From positions 62,001 to 126,000 of the forward strand of contig NZ_FQYN01000008.1 in NCBI RefSeq assembly GCF_900141805.1: a stretch of 64,000 nucleotides of DNA, read 5' to 3'. Source of the stretch: Hymenobacter daecheongensis DSM 21074 (GTDB lineage Bacteria > Bacteroidota > Bacteroidia > Cytophagales > Hymenobacteraceae). Below, piece after piece: positions 934-63,840 of this stretch. Under the pieces are notes generated by a model that saw only the letters and a program-made list of their open reading frames with translations, was not told where the DNA came from and made no database searches. The position numbers and the translations under genes are program-made. The first letter of the stretch is position 1. Each line of letters begins with the position of its first letter.

Positions 934-949
934 GTGGAGTCGTGGTCGT

Positions 950-1052: not shown

Positions 1053-1073
1053 ACGATTTCCCAGACTCACAAC

Positions 1074-16065: not shown

Positions 16066-16195
16066 ACCTCACCCCCTAGCCCCCTCTCCATAGGAGAGGG
16101 GGGACTAGCTCTAGTTTTCAGACCTGTTTATCAGCACTCTAGAAGCTAAAGGCTAGTTCCCCCTCTCCCATGGAGAGGGGGCTAGGGGGTGAGGT
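16066..16195. repeat. Long inverted repeat, family C, copy 1
   Basis: The left arm begins ACCTCACCCCCTAGCCCCCT and the right arm ends AGGGGGCTAGGGGGTGAGGT. Each arm contains its own small hairpin (CCCCTCTCC with GGAGAGGGG). It lies between convergent genes, 25 bases after the stop of the 14001 gene. Family C recurs at 45818-45978. Confidence 0.85.
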
Positions 16196-38941: not shown

Positions 38942-38954
38942 AAAACTACAAGAC

Positions 38955-39092
38955 TAGCTCCCCTCCTTTTTTCAAGGAGGGGTTGGGGGTGGTTGGCTAG
39001 GGCTAAAAAGTCGCCTGATGATTTTCTAGCCCTAGCCGTCGTTCAACGATTGAACCACCCCCAACCCCTCCTTGAAAAAAGGAGGGGAGCTA
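38955..39092. repeat. Long inverted repeat, family B, copy 1
   Basis: Two perfect 40-base arms: 38955-38994 (starting TAGCTCCCCTCC, ending GGGGGTGGTT) and 39053-39092. Each arm holds its own hairpin, CCCCTCCTT with AAGGAGGGG, so this is a palindrome made of palindromes. It lies between convergent genes and could terminate both. Copies 2 and 3 are at 52571 and 60269. Confidence 0.9.
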
Positions 39093-39112
39093 ATTCTTTA
39101 GCTTCCATAGTT

Positions 39113-40057
39113 CTAGCTCAGCAACTCGTGCAGCACGGTTTGCATCGAAAATACACGGTTGCCGGCCTCGGGAATAATGAGCGAGTTGGGCGAGTCTAGC
39201 ACGGCATCCGATACTTCCACGTTGCGGCGGATGGGCAGGCAGTGCAGCAGCCGGGCGTTGTTGGTGCGGGCCATGTGGGCGGTGTCCACCATCCAAGCGG
39301 GGTCTTGGCTCAGCACCTGGCCATAGTCGTGGTAGCTGCTCCAGTTTTTGGCGTAGATGAAGTCGGCGCCCTCGAAGGCTTTCTGCTGATCGTATTCGAT
39401 GCGGGCTCCTTTGGTAAACCGCTCGTTCAGCTCGTAGCCCTTAGGGTGGGTGATGACGAAATCGACCCAGCTGACTTCCGAAAACCAATCGGCGAAGGAA
39501 TTGGGCACGCATTGCGGCAATGCCCGTACGTGCGGGGCCCAGGTGAGCACCACTTTCACCCGCTCGGCTTGCTTGTACTCGGCCACCGTAATCAGGTCGG
39601 CGAAGCTTTGCAGCGGGTGCAGGGTGGCGCTTTCCAAGCTGATGACTGGTACTGTAGCGTATTGCAGAATCTTGTTGAATACGACTTCGCCGTAGTCCTC
39701 GGCCTTGTCCTTGAGGGTGGGGAAGGTGCGCACGCCCAGCACGTCGCAGTACTGGCTCATCACCGCGATGGCGTCCTTGATGTGCTCCTGGGTGCCGCCG
39801 TTCATTACCGCGCCATCTGCCATTTCCAGGGTCCAGGAGTCGGCCCCGGCGTTGAGCACCCAGGCTTGCGCGCCCAGGTTGTAGGCCGCCTTCACCGAAC
39901 TGAGCCGGGTGCGCAGGCTGGGGTTGAAGAATATCAGCCCGACGGTTGTGTTGCGCCCGATGTGCTGGTAGCCGTAGGGGTTGGCCTTGATTTCCAGGGC
40001 TTGCTGCAACAGGGCTTTGTAGTCGCCCGCATCGGCGAAGGAGGTGAAGTTTTTCAT
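39113..40057 (-). CDS. argF': N-acylornithine carbamoyltransferase
   Basis: 314 residues. Transfers the carbamoyl group from carbamoyl phosphate to an N-acylated ornithine, making N-acylcitrulline; this is the Bacteroidota/Xanthomonas type enzyme and not ordinary ArgF. FFNPSLRTRLS is the carbamoyl-phosphate loop, HPLQSFADL and HCLPIRRNVEVSD are the other family blocks. The residue that separates N-succinyl (Pro90 in B. fragilis) from N-acetyl (Glu92 in Xanthomonas) enzymes is Gln90 here (GGTQEHI; codon CAG at 39788-39790). The start overlaps the stop of the upstream zinc-ribbon gene by ATGA. It is last in the minus-strand arg-car unit, and ArgE (51476) can remove the acyl group afterwards. 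Confidence 0.93.
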   Translation of the reverse strand: MKNFTSFADAGDYKALLQQALEIKANPYGYQHIGRNTTVGLIFFNPSLRTRLSSVKAAYNLGAQAWVLNAGADSWTLEMADGAVMNGGTQEHIKDAIAVMSQYCDVLGVRTFPTLKDKAEDYGEVVFNKILQYATVPVISLESATLHPLQSFADLITVAEYKQAERVKVVLTWAPHVRALPQCVPNSFADWFSEVSWVDFVITHPKGYELNERFTKGARIEYDQQKAFEGADFIYAKNWSSYHDYGQVLSQDPAWMVDTAHMARTNNARLLHCLPIRRNVEVSDAVLDSPNSLIIPEAGNRVFSMQTVLHELLS

Positions 40058-40383
40058 TTTGTAGGCGATTTTGCCTGTGATTTATACTTGATAACAAACT
40101 CTTGAGCGTCCCTCAGATTTTCTGGATACTCAACATATTGCTCAATGCGGTTTAAGTGACCGGGCGTTGTGTTACGCTCAACTAAGTGCTGGTATGGAAA
40201 TCCATTTTTAATCAAGAATTCTACCGTCTCCCATTTAGCGGATTCGTTCTTCTTGGGCGGACGGAACCTGTGCGGCAATTGAATCATGGGAACTCCACAC
40301 ATCGTGCATATTACTTCACGAATGCCTTCATAAGGTACGTTAAAGGCTTTGCGGCAACTCAGACAAACGTTCTTGTAGCCCAT
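40054..40383 (-). CDS. Small zinc-ribbon-like hypothetical protein
   Basis: 109 residues. CLSC (7-10) and CTMC (26-29) form a likely zinc knuckle pair at the N-terminus, followed by a basic, Pro-rich segment (PHRFRPPKKNESAKWE) and a helical C-terminus. I do not recognise a named family. The stop overlaps the carbamoyltransferase start (ATGA), so it is translated with it, and the next gene upstream ends 11 bases away. GC content is visibly below that of the adjoining arg genes. The place in the arginine unit suggests co-regulation but not a defined role. Confidence 0.7.
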   Translation of the reverse strand: MGYKNVCLSCRKAFNVPYEGIREVICTMCGVPMIQLPHRFRPPKKNESAKWETVEFLIKNGFPYQHLVERNTTPGHLNRIEQYVEYPENLRDAQEFVIKYKSQAKSPTK

Positions 40384-40394
40384 GATTAAGAAAT

Positions 40395-40778
40395 CTATTT
40401 CTTCTTTAGCAGGTGCTTTGCGTATTCCTGATAAATCATTCCACTAGCGACAAACTTCTCCGCAGAAGCGCCATAATTCTCAATAGCAAAAGCAACTACA
40501 GCTTCTATAGAGTCGAAAAGATGCGTGGTACCACACGGCTCATTCTCTGGGTCAATTACACTGAATTCGTGGACGTCGTGAAACTCCTCGTCGCCTTCAT
40601 CGAATGACTCGAAATAAGTTACGCCAAATTGACCTTCTTCTTTCGCTACAGATATCCACCTAATGACTGTGTAATCAGCTTCATTGTAATGGGAAAGCCA
40701 TTGTTCAACTTCCTTTCCAAGATGAACACGTGCAATCAATTCCTGAGGCGAAGGATATGAGGCCATTCTGCTTGTCAA
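40395..40778 (-). CDS. Hypothetical protein in the arginine unit
   Basis: 127 residues, acidic (ESFDEGDEEFHDVHEF), no signal peptide or membrane segment. I do not recognise the family. It lies 7 bases after carB and 11 bases before the zinc-ribbon gene. Its GC content is clearly lower than that of carB. Start at 40778 (MTSRMASYPSP) is used; 40766 is also possible. The short mixed alpha/beta pattern with acidic loops recalls small immunity-type proteins, but this is only an impression. Confidence 0.62.
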   Translation of the reverse strand: MTSRMASYPSPQELIARVHLGKEVEQWLSHYNEADYTVIRWISVAKEEGQFGVTYFESFDEGDEEFHDVHEFSVIDPENEPCGTTHLFDSIEAVVAFAIENYGASAEKFVASGMIYQEYAKHLLKKK

Positions 40779-40785
40779 TCAACGA

Positions 40786-43700
40786 TTACATCGCCTTATA
40801 CTCGTTCCAGCTCTTAATCTTTAAATCCTTCATATCCAACGTACAGAAGGCTTGGATAAACGCCTTCGCCAGCCGCGCATTCGTCAGCAAACCAACCCCG
40901 AAATCCACAGCCGTGCGGCGGATTTTGTAGTCGTTATCCAATTCGCCTTTCGACAGGTTTTTGGGGATGTTGATGACCAGGTCGATTTTCTTCTCCTTCA
41001 GATACGTCAGCACGTTGGGCTCCTGCATCTCATCGGGCCAGTAGAGCAGGCTCGAGGGCACGCCGTTTTCGGCGAAGAAACGGTGCGTGCCCTGGGTGGC
41101 GTAAATCTGGTAGCCGCGTTTCACGAGCAGCTGGGTGGCAGAAAGCAGGGCCACTTTCGACAGGATGGGGCCGCCGGAAATGAGCACCGATTTCTGGGGG
41201 ATTTTGTAACCCACGCTCAGCATCGATTTCAGCAGGGCTTCCTCGGCGGTGTCGCCCAGGCAGCCCACTTCGCCGGTGCTCACCATGTCCACGCGCATCA
41301 CCGGGTCGGCGCCGGGCAGGCGTGTGAAGGAGAACTGCGGGGCCTTCACGCCCACGAAGGGAAGGTCATAGACTCGCTCGCTTTCGTCGCGCTCCACGGG
41401 GCGGCCCAGTAGGATTTGCGTGGCCTTTTTGATGAGGTTGTTGCCCGAGATTTTCGACACGAAGGGAAAGCTGCGCGAGGCGCGCAGGTTGCACTCAATT
41501 ACGCGGATGGCCCCGTCTTTTTCCAAGAATTGGATGTTGAAGGGGCCGCTGATTTCGTAGCGCCGGGCAATTTTCTCAGCGATGATTTTGAGCTTGCGGA
41601 TGGTGCCCACGTACACCTGCTGCGGCGGGTAGTACATCGTCGCGTCGCCGGAGTGCACGCCCGCAAACTCCACGTGCTCGGAAATGGCGTAGCTCACGAT
41701 GTCGCCGTGGTCGGCCACCGCATCCAGCTCAATTTCCTTGGCTTCCTGGATGAATTCCGACACCACCACCGGGTATTCGGCGCTCACCTCGACGGCCGTT
41801 TTCAGAAATTCTTCCAGCTCGAAGTTGTTGGACACCACGTTCATGGCCGCGCCCGACAGCACGTAGCTCGGCCGGATGAGCACCGGGAAACCGACTTCGC
41901 GCACGAATTCCTGCATGGCGGCCAGCGAGGTCAGCTCCTTCCAGCGCGGCTGGCCGATGCCCAGCTCGTCCATGATGCTGCTGAACTTGTGGCGGTTCTC
42001 GGCCTCGTCGATGCGGGCCGGCGCGGTGCCCAGAATGGGCGCGTGGGCGTCGGCCAGGCGGGTGGCGAGGTTGTTCGGAATCTGGCCGCCGGTGCTCAGA
42101 ATCACGCCGCCGGGCTGCTCAAAGTCCAGGATGTCCATCACCCGCTCGAAGCTCAGCTCCTCGAAGTAGAGCCGGTCCGACACGTCGTAGTCGGTCGAAA
42201 CGGTTTCGGGGTTGTAGTTGATGATGATGGTTTTGTAGCCCTCGGCCGCCGCCGTTTGCACGGCCTGCACGCCGCACCAGTCAAACTCCACCGACGAGCC
42301 GATGCGGTACACGCCCGAGCCCAGCACCACCACCGACTGCGCGGTTTCGCGCGCCAGGTCGTTTTCGGTGCCGTGGTAAGTGGTGTAGAGGTAGTTGGTT
42401 TTGGCCGGGAACTCGGCCGCCAGCGTATCAATCTGCTTCACCACGGGCAACACGCCCAGGGCCTTGCGGCGGGCGCGCACCCGCAGCTCGTCGGCCTTCA
42501 CGTCGCCTTCGCCCAGCAGCTGCACGGCAATCTGCTGATCGGAGAAACCGGCTTTCTTCACGTCGCGCAGCAGCTTGGTTTCCAGTCCGTCCACGCCCAC
42601 GCTACGGCCGGCGGCTAGCTGTTTGCCCAACTCGAAAATGGTGGACAAACGCTGTAAAAACCAGTGGTCAATCTTGGTCAACTCGTGCACCTGCTCCAGC
42701 GTGTAGCCGGCCTCAAACGCGCTATTGATGGCGAAGATGCGCTCCTCGTTGGGCTCGCTCAGGAGCTGGTCGATTTCGGCGTGGTCGAGGTCGTCCTCGG
42801 GGCGGTTGGCCACGAAGCCGCGCTTGCCGGTGTCCAGCATCCGCAGGCCTTTCTGAATGGCTTCCTCGAAGGATTTGCCGATGGCCATGACCTCGCCCAC
42901 GCTCTTCATGGCGCTGCCAATCTGGCGGTTCACGCCCGCAAACTTGCCCAGGTCCCAGCGCGGCAGCTTCACCACCACGTAGTCGAGGGCCGGCTCGAAG
43001 AAGGCCGAGGTGGTCTGCGTTACGCTGTTTTTCAGCTCGGCCAGCGAATAGCCCAGGCTCAGCTTGGCGGCCACGAAGGCCAGCGGATATCCCGTCGCCT
43101 TGGAGGCCAGCGCCGAGGAGCGCGACAGGCGCGCGTTCACCTCAATCACGCGGTAATCCTCCGAAACAGGGTCCAGCGCGTACTGAATGTTGCACTCGCC
43201 CACGATGCCCAGGTGGCGAATGGTCTTGATGCCGATGCTGCGCAGCTTGTGGTACTCGCGGTTGCTGAGCGTCTGCGACGGAGCCACCACGATGCTCTCA
43301 CCGGTGTGAATGCCGATGGGGTCGAAGTTCTCCATGTTGCAGACCGTGATGCAGTTATCATAGGCATCGCGCACCACTTCGTACTCCACTTCCTTCCAGC
43401 CCTTCAGCGATTCTTCCACCAGAATCTGGTCGGACGTAGTGAAGGATTTTTGGGCCAACGTCCGCAGCTCGTCCAGGTTGCCCGCGAAGCCGCTGCCCAG
43501 CCCGCCCAGCGCAAACGCCGCCCGCACGATGATGGGAAAGCCGATTTTCTCGGCTGCGGCCAACGCATCATCCATGTTGGTTACGGCCACGCTGCGGGCC
43601 GAGAGCACGCCAATCTGCTCCAGCTTCTCCTTGAAGATGTCCCGGTCCTCGGTGTCGATGATGCTCTGCACGGGCGTGCCCAGCACCTGCACGTGGTACT

Positions 43701-44019
43701 TCTCGAACACGCCGGCGCGGTACAGGGCCACGGCGCAATTCAGCGCCGTCTGGCCGCCAAAGGCTACCAGAATGCCATCGGGCTGCTCCTTTTTGATGAC
43801 TTCTTCCACAAAAAAGGGCGTCACGGGCAGGAAGTACACGTCGTCGGCCATGTGGTCCGACGTTTGCACGGTGGCAATGTTGGGGTTGATGAGGATGGTG
43901 CGGATGCCTTCCTCCTTCAGCGCCTTGAGGGCCTGCGAGCCGGAATAATCGAACTCCCCGGCCTCGCCGATTTTGAGGGCACCGGAACCGAGGATGAGAA
44001 CTTTGTTGGGTTTGTTCAT
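40786..44019 (-). CDS. carB: Carbamoyl-phosphate synthase large subunit
   Basis: 1077 residues from ATG 44019 ([27 protein letters not shown]). It makes carbamoyl phosphate for arginine and pyrimidine synthesis using ammonia from CarA. It has two homologous ATP-grasp halves: the first with [19 protein letters not shown] and [19 protein letters not shown], the second with [20 protein letters not shown] and [18 protein letters not shown]. The C-terminal MGS-like allosteric domain is also present ([21 protein letters not shown]). The frame is open for 20 more codons upstream, but that part is encoded by a repeat arm (44041-44070) and is not expected in CarB. A hypothetical gene separates it from carA. 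Confidence 0.96.
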   Translation of the reverse strand: [1077 protein letters not shown]

Positions 44020-44040
44020 TAGGTCGTGTGTGTGCAAACA

Positions 44041-44717
44041 GAACGTCATGCTGAGCGGAGCGCAGCGAAGTCGAAACATCTCTACTGCTTCGTTGCAAAA
44101 TCAGTAAGTCAAGAACGTTGCTTGCGGAAGCAAATACCCTGAAGGTGTAAAGTGTCAGACTTGAATACAACTTCACAGGTCGCGTCGTAGTCACAGTCGA
44201 GCACGGCAACATTCCAAGGGGTAGTTTGGCCTACAGCATAAAGCGACGTGTAAGGCAATAGGGCGCTGGGTAACGTAATGGCAGAATCAAAAAAACAAGT
44301 CAGTCCCTTCAGTTTCAATGGAGCTTTAGTGTCATCATCGCATGTAAAGGCAATTCCATTCCAAGGAATTTCAGCCTCTTGCTCTATGGATATAATTTCT
44401 GCTAATACTAATTCTGCTCCATCCACAGACCGGTAAAAGGCGAAGTTGCCGGTTTCAGTGTTGAAGAATCGGTGTGCAGCATCAAACTCGAATAGCAGCG
44501 TATGACCAATGCTTTGGACTACGTCCCAATAAAGCGTTTGCTCATATTCTGTACCACGCCAAGCATTAGCCTCTGTTAGTGAGCAAATGCCAACGGGTGC
44601 GCCCGAAGTTTCGCAGTAAGCGAGCAGCTGACATAACTGTGTTTTCATGTGCGCGTCCGAATTCAAACTCGTTTAACGAAGCGAGCAAGATGCTTCGCTG
44701 CGCTCTGCATGACGTTC
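44041..44717. repeat. Inverted arms bracketing a hypothetical gene between carA and carB
   Basis: The left arm at 44041-44070 begins GAACGTCATGC and ends AGCGCAGCGAAG. The right arm at 44693-44717, read in reverse, begins and ends with the same 11 and 12 bases and lacks about five bases in between. The 620 bases enclosed hold one gene (44109-44648) of lower GC content than the neighbours. The arms resemble the intergenic family A arms in their CATxCTGAGC core. The arrangement looks like a small mobile cassette or two independent repeat insertions. Confidence 0.65.
44109..44648 (-). CDS. Hypothetical protein inside a repeat-bracketed segment
   Basis: About 179 residues from ATG 44648 (MKTQLCQLLAYCETSG); the frame is open to 44666. 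No signal peptide, membrane segment or known domain is recognised. It has several cysteines (CQLL, CETS, CSLTE, CDDD, CFF, CDYD, CEVV, CFRK) and many acidic residues. GC content is near 47 percent by eye, well below carA and carB. It is on the same strand as both and could be read through. The flanking inverted arms (44041-44070 and 44693-44717) suggest it came with them. Function is unknown. Confidence 0.65.
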   Translation of the reverse strand: MKTQLCQLLAYCETSGAPVGICSLTEANAWRGTEYEQTLYWDVVQSIGHTLLFEFDAAHRFFNTETGNFAFYRSVDGAELVLAEIISIEQEAEIPWNGIAFTCDDDTKAPLKLKGLTCFFDSAITLPSALLPYTSLYAVGQTTPWNVAVLDCDYDATCEVVFKSDTLHLQGICFRKQRS

Positions 44718-44730
44718 TTTTCCAATCGTT

Positions 44731-45810: not shown

Positions 45811-45817
45811 ACTATTG

Positions 45818-45978
45818 GCCTCACCCCCTAGCCCCCTCTCCGGAGGAGAGGGGAGACTAGTTCCTAGTTTTAAGGCTAGAAAGTTTGGCTGGTGGTGAGG
45901 CGTAAAGAGGTGAGCTAGAAACTACTTTTTTAGAACTAGTTCCCCCTCCCCCCCGGAGAGGGGGCTAGGGGGTGAGGC
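45818..45978. repeat. Long inverted repeat, family C, copy 2, reaching into argD
   Basis: The left arm begins GCCTCACCCCCTAGCCCCCT at 45818 and the right arm ends GGGGCTAGGGGGTGAGGC at 45978. The argD stop codon (45922-45924) lies inside it and the last 18 argD codons (ASPPSPLSGG then EGELVLKK) are repeat sequence. It fills the argD-carA junction. Confidence 0.88.
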
Positions 45979-47100: not shown

Positions 47101-48134
47101 TAGAAAAGCACCGATTTGAGGTTGAGTCCCGTCGTTTCCGGCAGGCCAAAAAGGAGGTTCATATTCTGCACGGCCTGACCGGAAGCGCCTTTCACCAGGT
47201 TATCAATTACCGAAGTGATGAGCAGCTGCTTGCCCTGTTTCTGGACGTGCAGCAGGCACTTGTTGGTGTTGACGACCTGCTTCAAGTGGATTTCCGATTC
47301 CGACACCGTGGTAAATGGCGCATTAGCATAGAACTTCCAGTACAGCGCCCGCGCCTCGTCCTGCGTCAAATCCGAGGGCGTGTAGACGCTGGCGAAGATG
47401 CCCCGCGCGAAATTGCCTCGGTACGGGATGAAATGAATGTCCACGTCCAGCGGCGTTTGTAGCTGGGCCAGGCTCTCCCCGATTTCGCCCAAATGCTGGT
47501 GCGTAAAAGGTTTGTAGATGGACACATTATTCGTGCGCCAGGAGAAATGCACCGTTTCCGACAGGCTCTGCCCCGCGCCCGTGCTGCCCGTAATGGCCGA
47601 AACGTGCACGTCATCCGTGAGCTTGCCGGCCTGGGCCAGCGGTAGCAGGGCCAGTTGAATGGCCGTGGCGAAGCAGCCCGGATTGGCAATGCTCTGCGCC
47701 TGCTCGATGCGGCTTTTGTTCAGCTCCGGCAGACCGTACACGAACTCGCGGCCCGTAAACTCCGCATCGGCGGCCAAGCGGAAGTCATTGCTCAGGTCAA
47801 TAACGTGGGTGGTTTCGGGCAGCGGGTTTTTCTTCAGCCACGCCCGGGAATTGCCGTGGCCCAGGCACAGAAACACCACGTCTTCATCCCCGGCCAAATC
47901 TGACGAAAATCGCAGCTCCGTCTCCCCCACCAGGTCGTCGTGCACCTTGTAAATCGGGTTGCCGGCATTGGAAGAACTCACAATACCGCCCAGCTCCACA
48001 AATTCGTGGTGCAGCAGAATGCGCAGCAGCTCCCCGGCCGTGTAGCCGGCCCCGCCGACGATGCCGGCCTTCACCCCTCCCCCGGCCCCTCCCCAAAAGG
48101 GAGGGGTGCCAGACGTATTTTCGTTTGTAGTCAT
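47100..48134 (-). CDS. argC: N-acetyl-gamma-glutamyl-phosphate reductase, repeat-encoded N-terminus
   Basis: 344 residues. It reduces N-acylglutamyl phosphate to the semialdehyde with NADPH. VKAGIVGGAGYTAGELLRIL is the cofactor loop, and ANPGCFATAIQLALLPL carries the catalytic cysteine. The family normally starts just before KAGIVGG, but here residues 10-21 (TPPFWGGAGGGV) are encoded by the left arm of repeat D and the ATG at 48134 lies in that repeat's loop. An older start may have been displaced by the insertion. No other in-frame ATG, GTG or TTG closer to the fold is obvious, so this start is kept. Confidence 0.93.
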   Translation of the reverse strand: MTTNENTSGTPPFWGGAGGGVKAGIVGGAGYTAGELLRILLHHEFVELGGIVSSSNAGNPIYKVHDDLVGETELRFSSDLAGDEDVVFLCLGHGNSRAWLKKNPLPETTHVIDLSNDFRLAADAEFTGREFVYGLPELNKSRIEQAQSIANPGCFATAIQLALLPLAQAGKLTDDVHVSAITGSTGAGQSLSETVHFSWRTNNVSIYKPFTHQHLGEIGESLAQLQTPLDVDIHFIPYRGNFARGIFASVYTPSDLTQDEARALYWKFYANAPFTTVSESEIHLKQVVNTNKCLLHVQKQGKQLLITSVIDNLVKGASGQAVQNMNLLFGLPETTGLNLKSVLF

Positions 48135-48187
48135 ACGTTGCGTGGTAACCTAAGCCCCTCCCTTTTGGGGAGGAGTTGGGGAGGGGT
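48073..48187. repeat. Inverted repeat, family D, spanning the argG-argC junction
   Basis: The left arm starts ACCCCTCCCCCGGCCCC at 48073 and the right arm ends GTTGGGGAGGGGT at 48187; CCCCTCCC-type cores with AAAA/TTTT spacers pair across the loop. The argC start codon (48134) and the argG stop codon (48150-48152) both lie inside it. It encodes argC residues 10-21 and argG residues 393-404. Confidence 0.85.
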
Positions 48188-49364
48188 TAAAGGAAGAATG
48201 AATCTTCAACTGGTTGCTGAAAATCTTGATGAAGCCCTTCGCGTCGCGGCCGTCCCAGGCGTCGTTTTCCTCGCCGTAGGTAGCCACCTTCGACTGCATC
48301 ATATCGAACGGCGACTCCACGCCCAGCAGCTCAAACTGATACGATTTCAGGGTCACGAACACCGTGCCCGACACCCGCTCCTGCGACGACTCCAGGAAGG
48401 CCTCGAAGTCGCGCATCACCGGGTCGAGGTACTGGGCCTCGTGCAGCAGCGTGCCGTACCAGTTGGCCACGTAGTCCTTGTGCAGCAGCTGCCAGCGGCT
48501 CGACGTATGCTTTTCCAGCAGATGGTGGGCCTTGAGCAGAATCAGCGGGGCCGGGGCCTCGAAACCCACGCGGCCCTTGATGCCCAGAATCGTGTCGCCC
48601 ACGTGCGTGTCGCGGCCAATGGCGTACTGGCCGGCCAGCTCGTTGAGGGCCTGAATCAGCGCCACCGGGTTCATGGTTTCGCCATTCAGCGCTACTGGCT
48701 CGCCTTTTTCGAAGGTAATTTCGATACTCACCGGCTCCGTGGCGCTGAGCTGGGTCGGGTACGCCGATTCGGGCAGGGCTTGGTGCGAAGTCAGCGTTTC
48801 GACGCCGCCCACGCTGGTGCCCCAGATGCCCTTGTTGATGGAGTATTTGGCCTTTTCCCAGCTCATCTCGAAGCCATGCTGGTTGAGGAAGTCGATTTCG
48901 GCCTGGCGGGAAAGCTTCAGGTCACGAATGGGCGTGATGATTTCCGTGTTGGGGGCAATGACTGAGAAAGCCACGTCGAAGCGCACCTGGTCGTTGCCGG
49001 CGCCGGTGCTGCCGTGGGCAATGTAGTCGGCCCGGTGCTCGCGGGCGTACTCGGCCAGCGCCAGGCTCTGGAACATGCGCTCCGCGCTGACACTCAGCGG
49101 ATACGTGTCGTTTTTGAGGATATTGCCGAAAATGAGGTAGCGCAGGCACTGCTGGTAGAAACGCTCGGTCACGTCAATCACTTCGTGGCGGGTCGAGCCC
49201 AGCTCGTAGGCCCGCTGCTCGATGGCGGCCAGCTCTTCCTCGGAAAAGCCGCCGGAGTTGACGATAACCGTGTGTACTTCCAGACCCAGCTCGCGGGTCA
49301 GGTACACCGCGCAGAAGGACGTATCCAATCCGCCGCTGTACGCTAAAACTACCTTCTTTTTCAT
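48150..49364 (-). CDS. argG: Argininosuccinate synthase, repeat-encoded C-terminus
   Basis: 404 residues. It joins citrulline and aspartate with ATP. The P-loop VLAYSGGLDTSFCAVYL is at the N-terminus; GSTGAGNDQVRFDVAF and SINKGIWGTSVGG are the other conserved blocks. The core ends near FIKIFSNQL; the last 12 residues (NPSPTPPQKGGA) are repeat D sequence. It lies between the GNAT acetyltransferase and argC, with inverted repeat E in front of its start. ATG 49364 directly gives MKKKVVLAYSGGLDTS as expected. Confidence 0.95.
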   Translation of the reverse strand: MKKKVVLAYSGGLDTSFCAVYLTRELGLEVHTVIVNSGGFSEEELAAIEQRAYELGSTRHEVIDVTERFYQQCLRYLIFGNILKNDTYPLSVSAERMFQSLALAEYAREHRADYIAHGSTGAGNDQVRFDVAFSVIAPNTEIITPIRDLKLSRQAEIDFLNQHGFEMSWEKAKYSINKGIWGTSVGGVETLTSHQALPESAYPTQLSATEPVSIEITFEKGEPVALNGETMNPVALIQALNELAGQYAIGRDTHVGDTILGIKGRVGFEAPAPLILLKAHHLLEKHTSSRWQLLHKDYVANWYGTLLHEAQYLDPVMRDFEAFLESSQERVSGTVFVTLKSYQFELLGVESPFDMMQSKVATYGEENDAWDGRDAKGFIKIFSNQLKIHSSFNPSPTPPQKGGA

Positions 49365-49406
49365 GGTTTGAGGGGATATTAGAACGTCGTCAGGACGTTA
49401 GCAGCA

Positions 49407-49502
49407 CGTCATTCCGAGCGCAGCCGAGGAATCTCGCCCGCTCCGTTAGCTTACCAATCCTGCGTCAGCACGCGAGATTCCTCGGCTGCGCTCGGAATGA
49501 CG
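49407..49502. repeat. Inverted repeat, family E
   Basis: CGTCATTCCGAGCGCAGCC at 49407 and its arm continuing GAGGAATCTCGC pair with GCGAGATTCCTC and the closing GCGCTCGGAATGACG at 49502. The stem is about 30 bases with a loop of about 33. It lies between the GNAT gene stop and the argG start on the same strand, so a transcript from the shared promoter must read through it. Confidence 0.88.
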
Positions 49503-49536
49503 TTCTACCGACGTTCTGGTTTTTTCGTGCCAGATA

Positions 49537-52567: not shown

Positions 52568-52570
52568 AAG

Positions 52571-52717
52571 CTAGTTCCCCTCCTTTTTTCAAGGAGGGGT
52601 GCCCGAAGGGCGGGGTGGTTGCTAGAGCTAGAAAGTCGTTGAACATCGGCTAAAGCTAGTAGTCGTTCAACGATTGAACCACCCCCAACCCCTCCTTGAA
52701 AAAAGGAGGGGAGCTAG
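52571..52717. repeat. Long inverted repeat, family B, copy 2
   Basis: The left arm (CTAGTTCCCCTCC from 52571) has diverged inside (GGGGTGCCCGAAGGGCGG), while the right arm (AACCACCCCCAACCCC to GGGGAGCTAG at 52717) keeps the family sequence. It lies between argE and argH on the same strand, so transcription of argH must pass it. Confidence 0.87.
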
Positions 52718-52771
52718 ATTTCTAGTCCCGTGGCGCATTTGCCGTACATCGAAAAACCACACTCCGCACGT

Positions 52772-54073: not shown

Positions 54074-54093
54074 ACGGCGGCAACGCGTTCCGT

Positions 54094-54251
54094 CTGTCAT
54101 CCTGAGCTTGCGAAGGACCTTCCTCTTCGCCACTGAAAAACGCCTTTCAATGCACAAAGCCCTTTACCAAGCGGATGGTAAAGGGCTTTGCTCATTTCAA
54201 AAGGCTTGTCACTTATTGGAGGAAGGTCCTTCGCTTTGCTCAGGATGACAG
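54094..54251. repeat. Long inverted repeat, family A, copy 2, with nested terminator
   Basis: The arms CTGTCATCCTGAGCTTGCG from 54094 and its match ending CTCAGGATGACAG at 54251 are the same as in copies 1 and 3. Here the loop is different: it contains a full hairpin (54156-54189). It lies between the convergent argH and puuD genes. The loop swap suggests recombination or insertion inside an older copy. Confidence 0.87.
54156..54189. terminator. Terminator hairpin nested in repeat A2
   Basis: AAAGCCCTTTACC (54156-54168) pairs perfectly with GGTAAAGGGCTTT (54177-54189). Position between convergent stop codons fits a terminator for argH, puuD or both. Confidence 0.7.
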
Positions 54252-54284
54252 ATGGAGGATGACAGACGGTTAGGTTCGCCCTCT

Positions 54285-55688: not shown

Positions 55689-55907
55689 GCGGAACGCGGG
55701 CAAAAGAGCGGCGCTAACCAGCGCGGACTCCGGGTTGGAAGAAAGTGGGTTTGCCGCAATTTATCCACCTTACCGCCGGAAGGTCGCCGGGCGCATCGGC
55801 GCGGGGCGGCTTTCCACTTTGCCCGGTCAGCCCGCGGCAACGAGCTTCCGTTGAGGAAAAAATCCGGGCGGCAACCACCCGAATCAGCCCCCAATTTACA
55901 GAGAAAA

Positions 55908-57242: not shown

Positions 57243-57246
57243 CTGG

Positions 57247-58509: not shown

Positions 58510-58513
58510 CTTC

Positions 58514-59263
58514 ATGGAAATATCTGCCCTTACCCGCTCTGTCGTCAAGCGCAACCACGCCATCATTGCCCCCGATGGCTATATCAACAGCAACGTGCCG
58601 GGCTGGACCAACTGCACGGTCAACGTCATTATCAACGAGCAGATGGGTGCGCGCCTGTGCCAGACGCTCGTGACGCTGCGGGCCGGCGGCCGGCTGGAAG
58701 GCCGCACCCAGGCCTCCCAGATCTTTTTTTACGTAGTGGAAGGCGAGTGCGAAGTCACCATCGGCGGAGTGCAGCAGAAACTGCTCACCCAGGGTCAGTT
58801 CGTGTACGTGCCCATCGAGCAGGAATATCAGTTCCGCAACCATTTCGAGGGCACCCGCATCCTGACCTTCCACAAGGTGTATGAGCCGCTGGCCGGCCAG
58901 GCGGTGCCCAACGTCATTTTCGGGGAGCGGGACCTTGCCAAAGCGCCCGTGTACATGAACGACGAGGCCCTGCGCATTCAGGAGCTGCTGCCCAATGAGT
59001 TGGGCTTCGATATGGCCGTCAACATCTTCACCTACAGCACCGGCGGCCACCTGCCGATGGTCGAGACCCACATCATGGAGCACGGCCTGATGTATCTGCA
59101 GGGCCAGGCCATCTACATGCTCGATAACGAGTGGTACCCCGTCAAGCAGGGCGACTCCATCTGGATGGCGCCCTACTGCCAGCAGTGGGCCACCGCCATG
59201 GGCCAGGAAAACTCGGTGTACATCTACTACAAAAACGTCAACCGCTTCCCGACGGCGATTTAA
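58514..59263 (+). CDS. allE: (S)-ureidoglycine aminohydrolase
   Basis: 249 residues, a two-cupin protein that releases ammonia from ureidoglycine to give (S)-ureidoglycolate. In the C-terminal cupin VETHIMEHG gives the Glu, His, His ligands with the same spacing as the plant enzyme, and the Gln ligand 34 residues later is in YCQQW, so the manganese site is complete. SQIFFYVVEGECEVTIGG is the N-terminal cupin. It is 4 bases after the allC stop. Repeat A3 separates it from uraD. Confidence 0.93.
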   Translation: MEISALTRSVVKRNHAIIAPDGYINSNVPGWTNCTVNVIINEQMGARLCQTLVTLRAGGRLEGRTQASQIFFYVVEGECEVTIGGVQQKLLTQGQFVYVPIEQEYQFRNHFEGTRILTFHKVYEPLAGQAVPNVIFGERDLAKAPVYMNDEALRIQELLPNELGFDMAVNIFTYSTGGHLPMVETHIMEHGLMYLQGQAIYMLDNEWYPVKQGDSIWMAPYCQQWATAMGQENSVYIYYKNVNRFPTAI

Positions 59264-59267
59264 TCAC

Positions 59268-59370
59268 CTGTCATCCTGAGCTTGCGAAGGACCTTATGCC
59301 GGTTGAACGGATCGTTGGGACGAGTATGGTTCTCATCCCATAAGGTCCTTCGCTTTGCTCAGGATGACAG
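59268..59370. repeat. Long inverted repeat, family A, copy 3
   Basis: Arms CTGTCATCCTGAGCTTGCG and CTCAGGATGACAG with inner AAGGACCTTAT/ATAAGGTCCTT as in copy 1, and a loop that resembles the copy 1 loop (CATCCCATAAGG shared). It is placed between two co-directional urate genes, 4 bases after the allE stop and 18 bases before the uraD start. Confidence 0.9.
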
Positions 59371-59388
59371 GCGTTTTTTTGATTCCCC

Positions 59389-59904
59389 ATGACCCTCGAC
59401 GAACTCAACCACCTCCCGCCCGCCGCCCGCGCCGAGGAGCTGCGCAAATGCTGCGGCGCCAGCGCCTGGGTGGCCGGCCTGAACGAAGTCTTTCCCGTCA
59501 CGGACGTGGAAACGCTGCTGGATCAGGCCGACACCATCTGGAACCAGCTCTCGGAAGCTGATTGGAAGGAAGCCTTCACCCACCACCCCAAAATCGGGGG
59601 CAACGTGGCGGCGCTGCGCGAGAAGTTCGCCAGCACCAGTGCCTGGGCCGAGGGCGAGCAAGCCGGCGTGCGCGACACGTCGGAAGCCGTGCTCCAGGCC
59701 CTTTCCGACGGCAACGAGACCTACGAGCGGAAATTCGGCAACATTTTCATCGTGTTTGCCACCGGCAAAACCGCCGAGCAGATGCTGGCCTTGCTCGAAG
59801 CCCGCCTCCATAATACCCCCGAGGACGAAATCAAGCTGGCCGCCGCCGAGCAAAGTAAAATCACCCGCATCCGCCTGGAAAAGCTGCTGTCCCCCACCGC
59901 ATGA
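59389..59904 (+). CDS. uraD: 2-oxo-4-hydroxy-4-carboxy-5-ureidoimidazoline decarboxylase
   Basis: 171 residues. It decarboxylates OHCU to S-allantoin. NHLPPAARAEELRKCCGASAW, FTHHPKIGG (catalytic His) and SEAVLQALSDGNETYERKFG (C-terminal helix) are typical. The start at 59389 matches the family. It overlaps the next gene (uraH) by four bases (ATGA), which provides the substrate for it. The uricase partner is PuuD, divergent at 55688. Confidence 0.94.
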   Translation: MTLDELNHLPPAARAEELRKCCGASAWVAGLNEVFPVTDVETLLDQADTIWNQLSEADWKEAFTHHPKIGGNVAALREKFASTSAWAEGEQAGVRDTSEAVLQALSDGNETYERKFGNIFIVFATGKTAEQMLALLEARLHNTPEDEIKLAAAEQSKITRIRLEKLLSPTA

Positions 59905-60239
59905 GCCAAATCACGACCCACATTCTCGATACCACCCTGGGCAAACCCGCCGCCGGCGTCACCATCGTGCTTTCCGCCCAGCAGGGCGAAAACTGGACGG
60001 AGCTGGCCCGCGGCGTCACCAACGCCGACGGCCGCATTGCCAACCTGCTGCCCACCGACGAGCCGCTGCCGCTGGGCATCTACAAGATGAAATTCTTTAC
60101 CAAAGAATACTTCGAGCAGCAGAGCACGCCCAATTTCTACCCCTTCGTGGAAATCGTATTCGACGTGGCTACTACCGCGCATTACCATGTGCCGCTGCTG
60201 CTGAACCCCTTCGGCTACAGTACCTATCGGGGCTCGTAA
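59901..60239 (+). CDS. uraH: 5-hydroxyisourate hydrolase
   Basis: 112 residues, transthyretin-like. It hydrolyses 5-hydroxyisourate to OHCU. THILDTTLGKPAAGVTI at the N-terminus (catalytic His), NADGRI (Arg), HYHVPLLLNPFGYSTYRGS at the C-terminus with the His and the diagnostic YRGS end are all present. No extra domain or signal peptide is visible, so it acts in the cytoplasm. It overlaps uraD by four bases; repeat B3 follows 29 bases after its stop. Confidence 0.95.
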   Translation: MSQITTHILDTTLGKPAAGVTIVLSAQQGENWTELARGVTNADGRIANLLPTDEPLPLGIYKMKFFTKEYFEQQSTPNFYPFVEIVFDVATTAHYHVPLLLNPFGYSTYRGS

Positions 60240-60268
60240 AACAGCTACGGCTAAAAAACCAAGATTAG

Positions 60269-60397
60269 AAAACTAGCTCCCCTCCTTTTTTCAAGGAGGG
60301 GTTAGGGGTGGTTACTAGAGCTAGAAAATCGTCCAACGACAACTAGTTCTAGCTACCACCCCTACCCCTCCTTGAAAAAAGGAGGGGAGCTAGTTTT
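60269..60397. repeat. Long inverted repeat, family B, copy 3
   Basis: The left arm (AAAACTAGCTCCCCTCC from 60269) pairs with GGGGAGCTAGTTTT ending at 60397; each arm carries the CCCCTCCTT/AAGGAGGGG hairpin and a TAGGGGTGGT segment that pairs with ACCACCCCTA. It lies between uraH and the CitE-like gene, both on the plus strand. Confidence 0.9.
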
Positions 60398-60471
60398 AGT
60401 TTCGCAGCCTGCTTTCCAGTAGCTTGTTCGCCTTTCCCCTCTCAAATCCCGCCTCCTCCTTACCTTTCTCG

Positions 60472-61908
60472 ATGAAACTCAGCATTCAGGACGCCGACAA
60501 AACCGCCCTGCTCGACCAGCTCGGCGCGGCCAACCTCAAATTTCAGCACACCTACCCCGGCGACAAGCCCGACCGCCAGCCGGTGCACACCGTGTACGGC
60601 GGGGCCAACCTATTCAAGGCCGATACCTGCGTACGCATGGGCGACATTGCCCTGAACAACCTGCGCACCTACGCCCCCAACTTCGTGGAGCTGGCCCGCG
60701 TGCTCCAGCTCAAAGGCCACGAGCACCTGCCCACCACCGAAAAGGACATTGCCGACCTCACCGCCCGCCTCGACGCCATGAGCCCCCAGGAGCGCAAGCA
60801 GGAACACGCCTGGCTGGCCTACTCGGTCTATAATAAGATTATCAAAAAGCTGGAGCGCGAGGCCGTGGAAGACTTCCGCATCGACTTCGAAGACGGCTTC
60901 GGCAACCGCCCCAACGACGAGGAGGACGCCACCGCCGTACAGGCCGCCCACGAGCTGGCCAAGGGCATGGCCGCCGGCACCATCTCGCCCTTCATCGGCA
61001 TCCGCATCAAGCCTTTCACCGAGGATCTGAAAGCCCGCGGCGTACGCACCCTCGACATCTTCCTGACGGCCCTGCTGGAAAAAACCGGCGGCCGGCTGCC
61101 CGAAAACTTCGTGGTGATGCTGCCCAAAGTGACCATCCCGGAGCAAATGACCACAATGGTGCGCCTGTTTGAGTTGCTGGAAAAGGCCAACAACCTGGCC
61201 CCCGGCACGCTCAAGATGGAAACGATGGTGGAAGCCACCCAGATCATTATGGACGAGGACGGCCGCAACCCCTTGATGCGCATCATCCGCGCCAGCGAGG
61301 GCCGTTGCGTGGCCGCCCACTTCGGCACCTACGACTACACCGCCTCTGCTGGCATCACGGCCAAGTATCAGACCATGGCCCACCCCGTCTGCGACTTCGC
61401 CCACCACATGACCAAAGTGGCCCTCGGTGGCACCGGCATATTTCTTTCGGATGGTGCCACCAACGTAATGCCCATCGGCCCCCACCGCGGCGACAACCTC
61501 ACGTTTGAGCAGCTGCGCGAAAACCGCGAGTCGGTGCACAACGCCTGGCGGCAGGGCTTCCACCACACCACCCACTCGCTCATCAACGGCCTCTACCAGG
61601 GCTGGGACCTGAACCCGGCCCAGCTGCCGATGCGCTACGCGGCCACCTACAGCTTCTTCCTAAGCAGCTACGACGACGCCCTGTTCCGTCTGAAAACCTT
61701 CGTGGAGCGCGCCGCCATCAGCACCCTCACCGGCGACATCTTCGACGACGCCGCCACCGGCCAGGGCCTGCTCAACTTCTTCCTCAAAGCCCTGAACTGC
61801 GGTGCCATCACCGAAGAAGAAGTGCTGGCTACTGGCCTCACGCAGGACGAAATCCAGAGCCGCTCGTTCTTCCGCATTCTGGAAGGCCGCCGCAAGCAGA
61901 AAGCATAG
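60472..61908 (+). CDS. CitE/malate-synthase-like TIM-barrel protein (DUF6986 type)
   Basis: 478 residues from ATG 60472 (MKLSIQDADKTALLDQLG). The sequence resembles the HpcH/HpaI aldolase and CitE superfamily: DFRIDFEDGFGNR (acidic metal-binding loop), IGIRIKPFTED (Arg), LKMETMVEATQIIMDEDGRN and AAHFGTYDYTASAGI. It matches proteins annotated DUF6986 or phosphoenolpyruvate kinase, which are often next to urate genes. The urate pathway ends in glyoxylate; a role in condensing or handling glyoxylate is therefore possible, but no activity is established here. It is 232 bases after uraH, with repeat B3 between. Upstream in-frame residues from 60424 are discarded. Confidence 0.82.
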   Translation: MKLSIQDADKTALLDQLGAANLKFQHTYPGDKPDRQPVHTVYGGANLFKADTCVRMGDIALNNLRTYAPNFVELARVLQLKGHEHLPTTEKDIADLTARLDAMSPQERKQEHAWLAYSVYNKIIKKLEREAVEDFRIDFEDGFGNRPNDEEDATAVQAAHELAKGMAAGTISPFIGIRIKPFTEDLKARGVRTLDIFLTALLEKTGGRLPENFVVMLPKVTIPEQMTTMVRLFELLEKANNLAPGTLKMETMVEATQIIMDEDGRNPLMRIIRASEGRCVAAHFGTYDYTASAGITAKYQTMAHPVCDFAHHMTKVALGGTGIFLSDGATNVMPIGPHRGDNLTFEQLRENRESVHNAWRQGFHHTTHSLINGLYQGWDLNPAQLPMRYAATYSFFLSSYDDALFRLKTFVERAAISTLTGDIFDDAATGQGLLNFFLKALNCGAITEEEVLATGLTQDEIQSRSFFRILEGRRKQKA

Positions 61909-61932
61909 CGTATTGACTTGAGTTTGCCGCCG

Positions 61933-62030
61933 GAACGGTGTAGAGACGCGTCTTCGCGTCTCGTCGTTGAACAGCAATCGTTGTCACGGTTCCCACGATT
62001 GAGACGCAAGTATGCGTCTCTACACCGTTC
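61933..62030. repeat. Inverted repeat, family F
   Basis: GAACGGTGTAGAGACGCG from 61933 pairs with GCGTCTCTACACCGTTC ending at 62030. The arms also contain the inner pair GTCTTCGCGTCTC and GAGACGCAAGTATGC with some mismatches. It follows the stop of the CitE-like gene by 25 bases, just before a terminator. Confidence 0.8.
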
Positions 62031-62044
62031 AGACTTACCCCAAC

Positions 62045-62089
62045 AAAGCGCGCCGCAACAGCCTCACAGCAGCTGTTGCGGCGCGCTTT
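62045..62089 (+). terminator. Terminator ending the urate cluster
   Basis: AAAGCGCGCCGCAACAGC (62045-62062) pairs perfectly with GCTGTTGCGGCGCGCTTT (62072-62089), followed by GCTGTATTATTTTTTG. This is the strongest simple hairpin of the region. Confidence 0.85.
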
Positions 62090-62181
62090 GCTGTATTATT
62101 TTTTGTCGTGATTATAGCTTTAGCGGCGTCAGAACAAGCTTATTGCGCTCAATTAGTTGCGTCAATCAGTACCTTTAGCCC

Positions 62182-62712
62182 ATGAACCGCAAACCGCACA
62201 TCGCGCTTACTGCCTTGCAGCTTTTTGCTGAGAAAGGCTTTGAAAATACCTCCACCCAACTCATTGCCAAAGAAGCCGAAGTTTCGGAGGCCCTTATCTT
62301 CAAGTATTTCGGCAGCAAGGAACGCCTGCTCGATCATATCATCAAAAGCGGCTACAAGCGCGTAATTGAGCAAAACCGGGGCCGGCTGCTGAACAGCTCA
62401 CCACTGGAGTTGGTCTACAAAATCATTGACCTGCCCTACGAGCTGGTGCGCGAGGAGCCGCACTTCTGGAAGCTGCAGTCGCGGCTGATTGACGTGGAAA
62501 CGGCCCGCAAGCAGCACGAGCAGTTCCTGCAGCCCATGCCCGGCCTGCTCATCGAGTCCTTTCGCCAGTTGGGCTACGCGCAGCCGGAAATGGAAACGCG
62601 CTTCCTGCTGGGCTTAGTAGATGCACTCTGGAAAGGCCTGGCCAACCTGCGCCCTGAGTACACCCCGGAGATGCGCGACTTCATCAAAACCAAGTACCGG
62701 CAGCAATCCTGA
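62182..62712 (+). CDS. TetR/AcrR family transcriptional regulator
   Basis: 176 residues. The N-terminal helix-turn-helix is ALTALQLFAEKGFENTST then LIAKEAEVSEALIFKYF and GSKERLLDHII, the TetR pattern. The ligand-binding C-terminal half has no match that I recognise. It is monocistronic: a terminator precedes it (62045-62089) and another follows (62737-62781). It could control a transport or fatty-acid-type operon elsewhere; nothing in the window ties it to the urate genes except position. Confidence 0.9.
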   Translation: MNRKPHIALTALQLFAEKGFENTSTQLIAKEAEVSEALIFKYFGSKERLLDHIIKSGYKRVIEQNRGRLLNSSPLELVYKIIDLPYELVREEPHFWKLQSRLIDVETARKQHEQFLQPMPGLLIESFRQLGYAQPEMETRFLLGLVDALWKGLANLRPEYTPEMRDFIKTKYRQQS

Positions 62713-62736
62713 CAGGCCGTTTGCTGGCCGCCCAAC

Positions 62737-62781
62737 GCAAAAGCCCGCCCCACCGAGCAGATCGGCGGGGCGGGCTTTTGC
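62737..62781 (+). terminator. Terminator of the first TetR gene
   Basis: GCAAAAGCCCGCCCCACCGA (62737-62756) pairs with TCGGCGGGGCGGGCTTTTGC (62762-62781), nearly perfect, 25 bases after the stop codon. Confidence 0.85.
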
Positions 62782-62935
62782 AGTCGGAAACCTCGCAGTT
62801 TTCGCCTGATTCTGCCGGCTGGGGTGGGAGCAACACCCGGCAGAGTAGATCGTGGGAATTGGCCTGGGGCAAAACCGGGGGGCTTTTTGCCGGGGCAGGT
62901 CAAAATTACCAAAAGATTCGCAGAGACTGGTAAGT

Positions 62936-62945
62936 GTTAGCTAAC
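62936..62945. promoter_or_regulatory. Palindromic site upstream of the second TetR gene
   Basis: GTTAGCTAAC is a perfect 10-base palindrome, followed by TTTTAGTAAGTG. Its half-site GTTAG also occurs in the palindrome at 63090-63105, so both may bind the same regulator. Confidence 0.4.
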
Positions 62946-63089
62946 TTTTAGTAAGTGTACGCTCACCAATACCATTCAACTTCCATGTTATCAAAATATT
63001 ACCAACTAAAGCCAGCAAAAATAAATTGAAGCCGTCATGGAATACGCCTGCCTTTAGTGTCTTGGATCTGGAGTCGGATACGCAGGTAA

Positions 63090-63105
63090 ACTAACATTTG
63101 TTAGT
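63090..63105. promoter_or_regulatory. Likely TetR operator overlapping the promoter of the 63165 gene
   Basis: ACTAACA-TT-TGTTAGT is a perfect palindrome with 7-base arms. It directly abuts TATATTTA (63105-63112), which is close to the TAnnTTTG -7 element, 60 bases before the regulator's ATG. Autorepression by the regulator is the natural reading. Confidence 0.6.
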
Positions 63106-63164
63106 ATATTTAACCTGTTCATCCAGCCCTTGGCCCTACTTACTTTCGGCTACCCGGCGCATTC

Positions 63165-63746
63165 ATGGCTAAAAAAACAAAGAGCAACAAGCGGCAGCTG
63201 ATTCTGGAGGAAGCAGCTAAGCTATTTAAGGCCAGAGGATTTGGTGGCACCTCCATGCGCGATTTGGGCGCGCAGGTGGGCATGGAAGCGGCCAGCATGT
63301 ACAACCACATCAACTCCAAAGACGAGATTCTGGAAATAATCTGCTTTCAGATTTCGGACACCTACATTTCGCAACTGGCTGAGATTGAGCAGACGGCTAC
63401 GAGCTACGTGGAGAAAATCAAAGCCCTGATCCGGCTGCACATCCGGCTCATGATTGAGGATGGGGCGGCCGTATCGGTAGCCAACAACGACTGGAAATAC
63501 CTGACCAACGACAAGCTCGAAGCCTTTAAGCAGGCCCGCAAAAACTACGAAAAGGGCTTTGCGGCCCTGATTGAGCAGGGCATTGCGGCCGGCGAATTGC
63601 AGCCCGTGAATGCCTCCGTGGCGCTGTTCACCATCTTGTCGGCGGTGCGGTGGGTGGAGCTGTGGTATCGGCCGGGCCGGGGCATCACGGCCGAGGAGCT
63701 GGAAGAAAACATCATCACCTTACTTCTGAATGGCCTGGCTAAGTGA
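63165..63746 (+). CDS. TetR/AcrR family regulator, probable phenylacetate regulator
   Basis: 193 residues. The helix-turn-helix reads AKLFKARGFGGTSMRDLGAQ then VGMEAASMYNHINSKDEIL. The C-terminal domain (AALIEQGIAAGELQPVN, WVELWYRPGRGITAEELEEN) is of the fatty-acid/phenylacetate regulator type. The next gene, 101 bases downstream, is PaaE-like, so this is probably the local regulator of the phenylacetate operon. A palindrome overlaps its promoter (63090-63105). No terminator is seen between it and paaE, only repeat G. Confidence 0.88.
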   Translation: MAKKTKSNKRQLILEEAAKLFKARGFGGTSMRDLGAQVGMEAASMYNHINSKDEILEIICFQISDTYISQLAEIEQTATSYVEKIKALIRLHIRLMIEDGAAVSVANNDWKYLTNDKLEAFKQARKNYEKGFAALIEQGIAAGELQPVNASVALFTILSAVRWVELWYRPGRGITAEELEENIITLLLNGLAK

Positions 63747-63840
63747 GTTATCAGTTGTTCGTTGTCAGTTGTCAGTTTTTTCATTCATTGATAAAATAGC
63801 CAACAGCCGACTAACAACTGCCAACGAACAACCGACAACT
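63747..63840. repeat. Inverted repeat, family G
   Basis: The left arm (63747-63775, containing AGTTGTTCGTTGTCAGTTG) pairs with the right arm (63811-63840, containing CAACTGCCAACGAACAAC when read in parts), 29 bases with about four mismatches. It starts right after the regulator stop and ends 7 bases before the paaE start. Confidence 0.7.

Follow-up and report, generated by a model that had tools for sequence, protein, structure and literature searches.

Palindromic repeats between arginine and urate genes of Hymenobacter daecheongensis are dispersed genome-wide, and some share their arms with putative nuclease-encoding mobile elements

The gene junctions of a 64,000-nucleotide stretch of the Hymenobacter daecheongensis DSM 21074 genome (contig NZ_FQYN01000008.1, positions 62,001 to 126,000; hereafter the window) hold a series of inverted repeats. 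The explanation that we favor, at slightly better than even confidence, is that the repeats in these junctions are mobile, short, palindromic and non-autonomous, and belong to superfamilies that have small nuclease-encoding long forms of their own. The repeats are dispersed over the genome, orthologous sites in relatives are empty, sites of elements with a DUF559 gene are filled in some species and empty in others, nuclease genes lie between palindromic arms, and the type of arm follows the DUF559 phylogeny. From sequence comparison, which is the evidence throughout, we infer that the nucleases of the DUF559 and GIY-YIG families may mobilize these repeats.

The hairpin of the elements named B, CTCCTTTTTTCAAGGAG, was found in 25 genome copies per strand with one mismatch at most, and the word TGTCATCCTGAGC, typical of the elements named A, in 130 + 127 copies, against none for the reversed control of the former or the control of the latter, so that the elements exceed what chance would give. 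In most families each arm holds a small hairpin of its own, and the elements are therefore inverted dimers of short palindromes. Inspection by eye revealed a unit common to B, C and D, consisting of a CTA(A)G tag, a C4TCYC...G4 hairpin and a GGGGGTGRTT-like tail, with the tag outside in B and inside in C and D; the three look like one superfamily. On the other hand, a YGTCAT tag is common to A, to a pair of arms at carA-carB (hereafter A2-type) and to E, whereas F is made of GTAG plus a hairpin. The first-pass annotation of the window had counted at least seven families, which is too many for lineages, because a single unit, in two dimer polarities, accounts for B, C and D, and because A, E and the carA-carB pair have a tag in common.

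The YGTC tag followed by AT (TGTCATCCTGAGC, CGTCATTCCGAGC), the inverted dimers and the outward tags of A, A2-type and E are also those of the CGTC class of repetitive extragenic palindromic (REP) sequences, which includes dRS3 of Neisseria and RPE-4 and RPE-6 of Rickettsia, and whose description in PMC3733652 gives an 8-9 bp stem, a 4-5 nt loop and mostly a CCA tail. In contrast, the stems of A and E are short and imperfect, of about 5 bp with mismatches beyond (by eye), and their tails read GAAGGACCTT and GGAATCTCG instead of CCA. As stem and tail thus depart from the definition, A and E of the window are termed CGTC-like and are not filed as members of the class.

An inverted-repeat search together with the printed sequence located every compact element that the annotation had listed between 38.9 and 63.8 kb (B1, C2, D, E, B2, A2, A3, B3, F and G), and left two only, as claimed, in the first part of the window (946-1056 and 16066-16195). 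At carA-carB two CGTC-like arms do exist, but as a pair about 580 bases apart and not as a compact hairpin. The elements, none of which is assigned a strand, are the following:

946-1056: A-type (CGTC-like) inverted dimer, tags outside (inverted-repeat search, printed sequence)
16066-16195: C-type dimer of the DUF559-linked superfamily (inverted-repeat search, printed sequence)
38943-39104: B1, B-type dimer with CTAG tags outside, between convergent genes
44040-44095 (approximate): left arm of the A2-type (CGTC-like) pair at carA-carB
44675-44722 (approximate): right arm of the A2-type pair at carA-carB
45818-45978: C2, C-type dimer between carA and argD, extending into the argD reading frame
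48068-48193: D-type dimer within the argG/argC overlap, replacing the ArgG C-terminus and the ArgC N-terminus
49391-49518: E-type (CGTC-like) dimer between argG and an acetyltransferase-like gene
52568-52720: B2, B-type dimer between an argE-like gene and argH
54089-54256: A-type dimer downstream of argH (called A2 in the first-pass annotation)
59262-59376: A3, A-type dimer between the ureidoglycine aminohydrolase and OHCU decarboxylase genes
60269-60397: B3, B-type dimer downstream of the hydroxyisourate hydrolase gene
61933-62030: F-type dimer, GTAG-tagged, GTAGAGACGC...GCGTCTC
63746-63840: G, inverted pair of short words

Around them lie an arginine cluster (N-acetylornithine carbamoyltransferase, carB, carA, argD, argC, argG, acetyltransferase-like, argB, argE-like and argH) and a second gene set for purine-ring degradation. 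Two more hairpins, at 62041-62093 and 62737-62781, resemble ordinary terminators. The carB start codon of the open reading frame (ORF) list (44079) falls within the arm at 44040-44095, and the true start may be further in. Inverted pairs of 6-9 nt words (GTGAGTTAG.., ATGTGCTAATG.., AATTAAAAATT.., TTGTCAGTTG..), of which 63746-63840 is the window example, are common in the genome; in the RNase P RNA gene (RF00010; L001:2092-2555, G000:C11) an insert of about 75 nt within the RNA is likewise an inverted pair of short words (2232-2305).

The connection of B, C and D with a nuclease gene appeared at a B pair of the H. daecheongensis genome whose arms are 562 bases apart, with a DUF559 gene between them. 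Genes matching PF04480 (DUF559) were found in 51 of 61 genomes of the genus, and the five copies of H. daecheongensis are all enclosed by arms of type B, C or D, with one arm broken at the L383 copy (by eye). Several B dimers of this genome also share, by eye, about 25 nt past the hairpin with its DUF559 element L252. Miniature inverted-repeat transposable elements (MITEs) are short copies without coding capacity that retain the inverted ends of an element with a gene. These B dimers resemble them in being gene-free and in having ends homologous to those of a coding element of the same genome, L252, although the partner gene does not encode a DDE transposase. B, C and D would accordingly be copies that keep the ends of an element of about 500-700 bp with a gene for DUF559, a Vsr-like endonuclease.

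Flanking inverted arms were detected at 27 of 32 DUF559 loci of the genus at a score of at least 20 and at 24 of 32 at a score of at least 30, compared to 7 and 1, respectively, of 90 control loci around argH, argG and uraD, none of them of the B/C/D type; flanks were cut in two DUF559 loci (L291, L038) and one control (L093) of this comparison. Among named DUF559 loci from several phyla (the best 80 of 446, overlapping partly in species with the genus set), 50 had arms of score 20 or more, comprising 23 of 26 from Hymenobacter and Solirubrum and 27 of 54 from other bacteria, including Pontibacter, Flavobacteriaceae and Acidobacteria. On a tree of 114 DUF559 loci, the 56 whose two arms agree in type require 8 changes of type and 4 of polarity, while the lowest values in 200 shuffles were 23 and 13. 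Arms and DUF559 evolve together.

Presence and absence of whole DUF559 elements could be compared at the purQ-purC junction, scorable in 29 of 30 species, where such an element was present in 11 (D-type in four, C-type in seven) and absent in 18. The empty junctions measure 83-121 nt and contain no dimer in the printed sequence, which suggests that at this site the arms come with the gene. The mrp-dnaG junction had been considered as the main empty-site test and was dropped in favor of purQ-purC, with 8 of 30 loci scorable; it is filled in H. daecheongensis and has no DUF559 gene in the 7 other scorable species, the gaps being of 103-267 nt in six and of 974 in G010. At the DUF559 element before purC (L385/L283, G000:C18:14458) the PurQ tail of the empty-site species is replaced, and the upstream frame continues into the element.

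These results bear on the chief rival, in which DUF559 and GIY-YIG genes are passengers that home into palindromes already in existence, as a safe and repeated target, the palindromes spreading by some other means. The DUF559 protein matches PDB 3hrl (E 2.8e-34) and 3r3p (E 2e-4), and the title of the latter, 'Mobile intron protein', favors passengers; we take 3r3p to be a homing endonuclease. In the same direction point genomes that are hairpin-rich without strong DUF559 hits, and GIY-YIG genes with a complete CGTC-like dimer alongside instead of a single arm, whereas the finding of different DUF559 element types at the same purQ-purC site, and at another shared site, fits both explanations. 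Conversely, neither the agreement of arm type and polarity with the DUF559 tree nor the short, dimer-free state of the 18 empty purQ-purC junctions is what passengers would lead one to expect, and we consider this rival unlikely, while still giving it real weight.

For the CGTC-like arms the candidate partner is a GIY-YIG nuclease. In one relative a GIY-YIG gene (PF01541) lies between A2-type arms, and such arms stand beside all seven GIY-YIG genes found in arginine-locus DNA of the genus, close on both sides in three, whereas of 11800 random windows 17 had such arms on both sides. A plasmid collection contained 32 matching GIY-YIG records, of which 16 were analyzed, chosen to spread over genera. 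With a strict detector, CGTC repeats were present on at least one side of 12 of these loci (both sides in 10, one side in 2), compared with 0.6% on both sides and 10% on any side for windows drawn at random from seven of these replicons. The Spirosoma and Planktothrix loci, which this detector counts as misses, have CGTC repeats with imperfect stems when inspected by eye. Two short matches among viral contigs were not used. The 185-aa ORF between the carA-carB arms of the window, without a Pfam match, was considered as a CGTC-type partner gene and rejected, as relatives hold unrelated ORFs there. The link of A and E of the window to GIY-YIG is by resemblance only; they would share the partner seen for A2-type arms and for the CGTC repeats of other bacteria.

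In the explanation that we favor, each nuclease would recognize its own palindrome or target and cut it, and repair of the break would copy the element to new places, with gene-free pairs being mobilized in trans. Several observations weigh against this explanation. The sequence common to B dimers and L252 past the hairpin is short, 27 of the 54 DUF559 loci outside Hymenobacter and Solirubrum (among the best 80 of 446) have no arms of score 20, and the 114 loci of the tree include 19 with no arm by the patterns used, 12 with mixed types and 27 with an arm on one side. The number of DUF559 genes correlates with that of hairpins over 61 genomes (rho 0.53, kinship not corrected, strong hits counted by hand at E < ~1e-17), but 14 of the 61 have no strong DUF559 hit and three of these (G032, G021, G024) hold 94-129 hairpins. 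As the DNA examined was that of the arginine loci, the seven GIY-YIG loci of the genus all adjoin car genes, at few shared sites, and thus represent few independent cases. One of them, L180, lacks an arm after the GIY-YIG gene, and in Hymenobacter GIY-YIG genes were seen with A2-type arms only, never with A or E. The 16 plasmid-collection loci include three from Shinella and two near-identical ones from Sphingobium, and no CGTC repeat was found at those of S. meliloti and R. tumorigenes. No GIY-YIG gene was found in the window or in the genome sample described below, the rest of the H. daecheongensis genome not having been searched, and G has no known partner, none having been looked for.

The first-pass annotation had also proposed to look for a RAYT (REP-associated tyrosine transposase) in the genome. 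RAYT genes are present and explain F and a family R; no such link came to light for B, C, D, A or E. PF01797 identified one RAYT gene (L001), flanked by repeats of hairpin plus GTAG that constitute family R, with 15 copies in the genome sample and none in the window. Among 40 further RAYT-like loci of relatives, whose flanks may be displaced by some hundreds of bases where a reading frame was misread for strand (for the rest of the 70 loci treated below the match itself was used), L218 has F-type ends. Relatives of its protein occur in 46 of 120 genomes of the genus, with one in H. daecheongensis (L239, G000:C14:108724-109278), and F-type hairpins flank the RAYT gene on at least one side in all 30 loci examined as best hits, L239 included, and on both sides in 26, one of the 30 carrying a GAGACAC variant. 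F of the window has the GTAG tag beside a hairpin (61933-62030), as GTAG REPs do, and the L218 protein has, by motif only, the HUH motif DHVH and a catalytic Tyr in YIRNNP. The F pairs belong with an HUH-type RAYT. As L239 was missed by PF01797, RAYT counts from that model can be too low.

Several other hairpin families of the genus, besides F and R, flank RAYT genes, and the CTAG tag of B and C resembles that of the RAYT-linked CCCAGGG family, which would agree with mobilization of all families by RAYTs, whether present or since lost. However, at 70 RAYT or Y1 loci the arm of B, C, D, A or E was never the best terminal repeat (L048 has an E dimer on one side), and it is DUF559 genes that carry B, C and D arms. 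One RAYT for all families was rejected for B, C and D after these 70 loci, and the explanation as a whole appears improbable. The CCCAGGG...CCCTGGG-CTAG palindrome family flanks a RAYT gene of its own (L061, L063) and is also found in the argD-argC gap of G089 and G075. Four RAYT-like genes (L001, L060, L064, L184) have a YI(E/Q)xQQ motif and are flanked by hairpin plus GTAG repeats or by the hairpin portion of these; PMC6006769, where it treats a RAYT subclass (1.2) of Bacteroidetes and Cyanobacteria with a similar motif, describes it as generally without typical terminal structures.

Orthologous arginine junctions were compared in 20 relatives picked from the best ArgG hits, all of which had the argD-argH part in order. 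At argC-argG, 17 of 21 species have no element and the two genes overlap, so no spacer is needed; the argG stop falls there inside the argC start (ATGAAAATTAA, by eye). The junction is filled by a D-type element in H. daecheongensis, G001 and G030 and by a C-type one in G089. Where the element is D-type, in all three species, new residues form the end of ArgG, and ArgC is extended in frame at its N-terminus by a stretch that includes SGTPPFWGG[AD]GGG, with an ATG upstream (predicted N-terminus in H. daecheongensis, SGTPPFWGGAGGG). A check for target-site duplication found that the insertion seems to replace about 10 nt, the borders being blurred by divergence. The argD-argC gap is 2 nt in seven species including H. 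daecheongensis, holds E-type arms in at least five and the CCCAGGG palindrome in two, and the argG-acetyltransferase junction is 0-23 nt in eight species and holds E-, A- or A2-type pairs in others. One arginine junction thus receives different families, or none, according to species.

The annotation had offered two explanations for the repeats, attenuation or RNA processing in the arginine and urate operons, and a mobile repeat. The empty junctions that it proposed to look for in relatives do exist at orthologous arginine sites, and these support the mobile repeat, as do the genome-wide copies, the variety of families found at one and the same junction and the RAYT genes of the genome. A function of the stems in RNA, as attenuators, terminators or processing sites selected in these operons, could account for their position mostly 3' of genes, their avoidance of divergent junctions and a density here of about twice that of the genome sample. 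However, orthologous arginine clusters, to which the comparison was confined, lack elements or hold unrelated families, which makes a conserved operon signal or attenuator unlikely, in 17 of 21 species the argG and argC genes overlap, a scan of the window found no Rfam family at gathering score, and elements occupy many other junctions. The RNA role is thus unsupported, and we regard it as highly improbable.

The genome sample consisted of 755 kb outside the window, about one fifth of the genome, with the all-N contigs L007 and L010 dropped and genes called by our own script. Sample and window together gave 201 inverted repeats, 69 of which had no family pattern, many resembling terminators, and were excluded from the 121 elements of the sample and the 11 of the window. 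The sample thus contains 0.16 elements per kb, compared with 9 (0.36 per kb) in the arginine/urate part and 2 in the first 38.9 kb by the same detector, which misses the A-type dimer at 54089-54256 and the carA-carB pair, so that the arginine/urate count is too low. Among junctions of at least 60 bases, 8 of 16 were occupied in the arginine/urate part, 2 of 16 in the first part and 105 of 489 in the sample, where occupancy was 79 of 320 for co-directional, 22 of 70 for convergent and 4 of 99 for divergent pairs. Of 36 sampled 20-kb stretches, one had 8 elements, two had 7 and three had 6, a range that includes the 7.2 per 20 kb of the arginine/urate part. Preferential survival in these operons, as the annotation had it, is therefore weakly supported: the density is about twice the sample mean, but lies within the sample range for a region that was picked for looking dense, and we rejected the enrichment. 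By rough estimate, the chance of finding three B dimers inside 25 kb somewhere in the genome is about 0.2.

Copies across all intergenic regions, which the annotation had set against its own proposal, are largely what was found, as the same families occur throughout the sample, for the most part right behind a stop codon. Among 86 elements in co-directional junctions, 68 were closer to the upstream stop, at a median distance of 18.5 bases, and this intergenic position near 3' ends matches the REP pattern that PMC3733652 describes for other bacteria. The elements are real and yet no feature specific to arginine or urate genes. Copies would persist mostly just past stop codons since insertions are tolerated there, and not since these genes need them.

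Among known systems, those of REPs and RAYTs (REPtrons, GTAG REPs and TIRtrons), as characterized in PMC3733652, are alike in their short intergenic palindromes near 3' ends, their inverted dimers, the stop codons that they may supply and their link to a small nuclease gene, and F fits them directly. In contrast, the nucleases linked to B/C/D and to the CGTC repeats are of the DUF559 and GIY-YIG families and are not HUH tyrosine transposases. Free-standing homing endonucleases include Vsr-like (EDxHD) and GIY-YIG families. Their genes are likewise small and considered to travel along with the DNA around them, but here no intron or intein was seen, the inverted arms are long with inner hairpins, and many copies are gene-free. 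VsrA of Caulobacter is also a Vsr-like DUF559 protein, responsible for an SOS response in cells without ScmA methylation, and flanking palindromes or mobility are not mentioned where PMC12907096 deals with it. In its treatment of CGTC repeats, PMC3733652 reported in 2013 that they had no dedicated transposase and were not associated with transposase genes, tyrosine and other transposases having been examined, whereas most of the GIY-YIG loci examined here are flanked by such repeats. Literature searches, with subscription journals and preprints mostly outside their coverage, gave no relevant match by title for DUF559 with inverted repeats, transposability or palindromes, and none on REPs by title among the matches listed for GIY-YIG with palindromic repeats and mobile elements, while a single paper (PMC9465073) came up for GIY-YIG with repetitive extragenic sequences or dRS3; the Pfam name of DUF559 is still 'protein of unknown function'.

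A broader proposal, to which we give a little less than even confidence, is that two common kinds of bacterial palindromes, the CCCCTCC...GGAGGGG repeats with DUF559 and the CGTC repeats, dRS3-like ones included, with GIY-YIG, are gene-free copies of elements driven by homing endonucleases. With RAYTs included, the same life style of cut and repair, with no classical transposase, would then have arisen independently from three unrelated nuclease folds. Should each nuclease drive its own palindromes, one could test directly where the abundant repeats of Bacteroidota, alphaproteobacteria and other bacteria come from, two widespread small gene families would acquire a role, and hairpins within operons would not need to be counted as regulatory. 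The elements also rewrite protein ends, one of them providing here both the ArgG C-terminus and the ArgC N-terminus.

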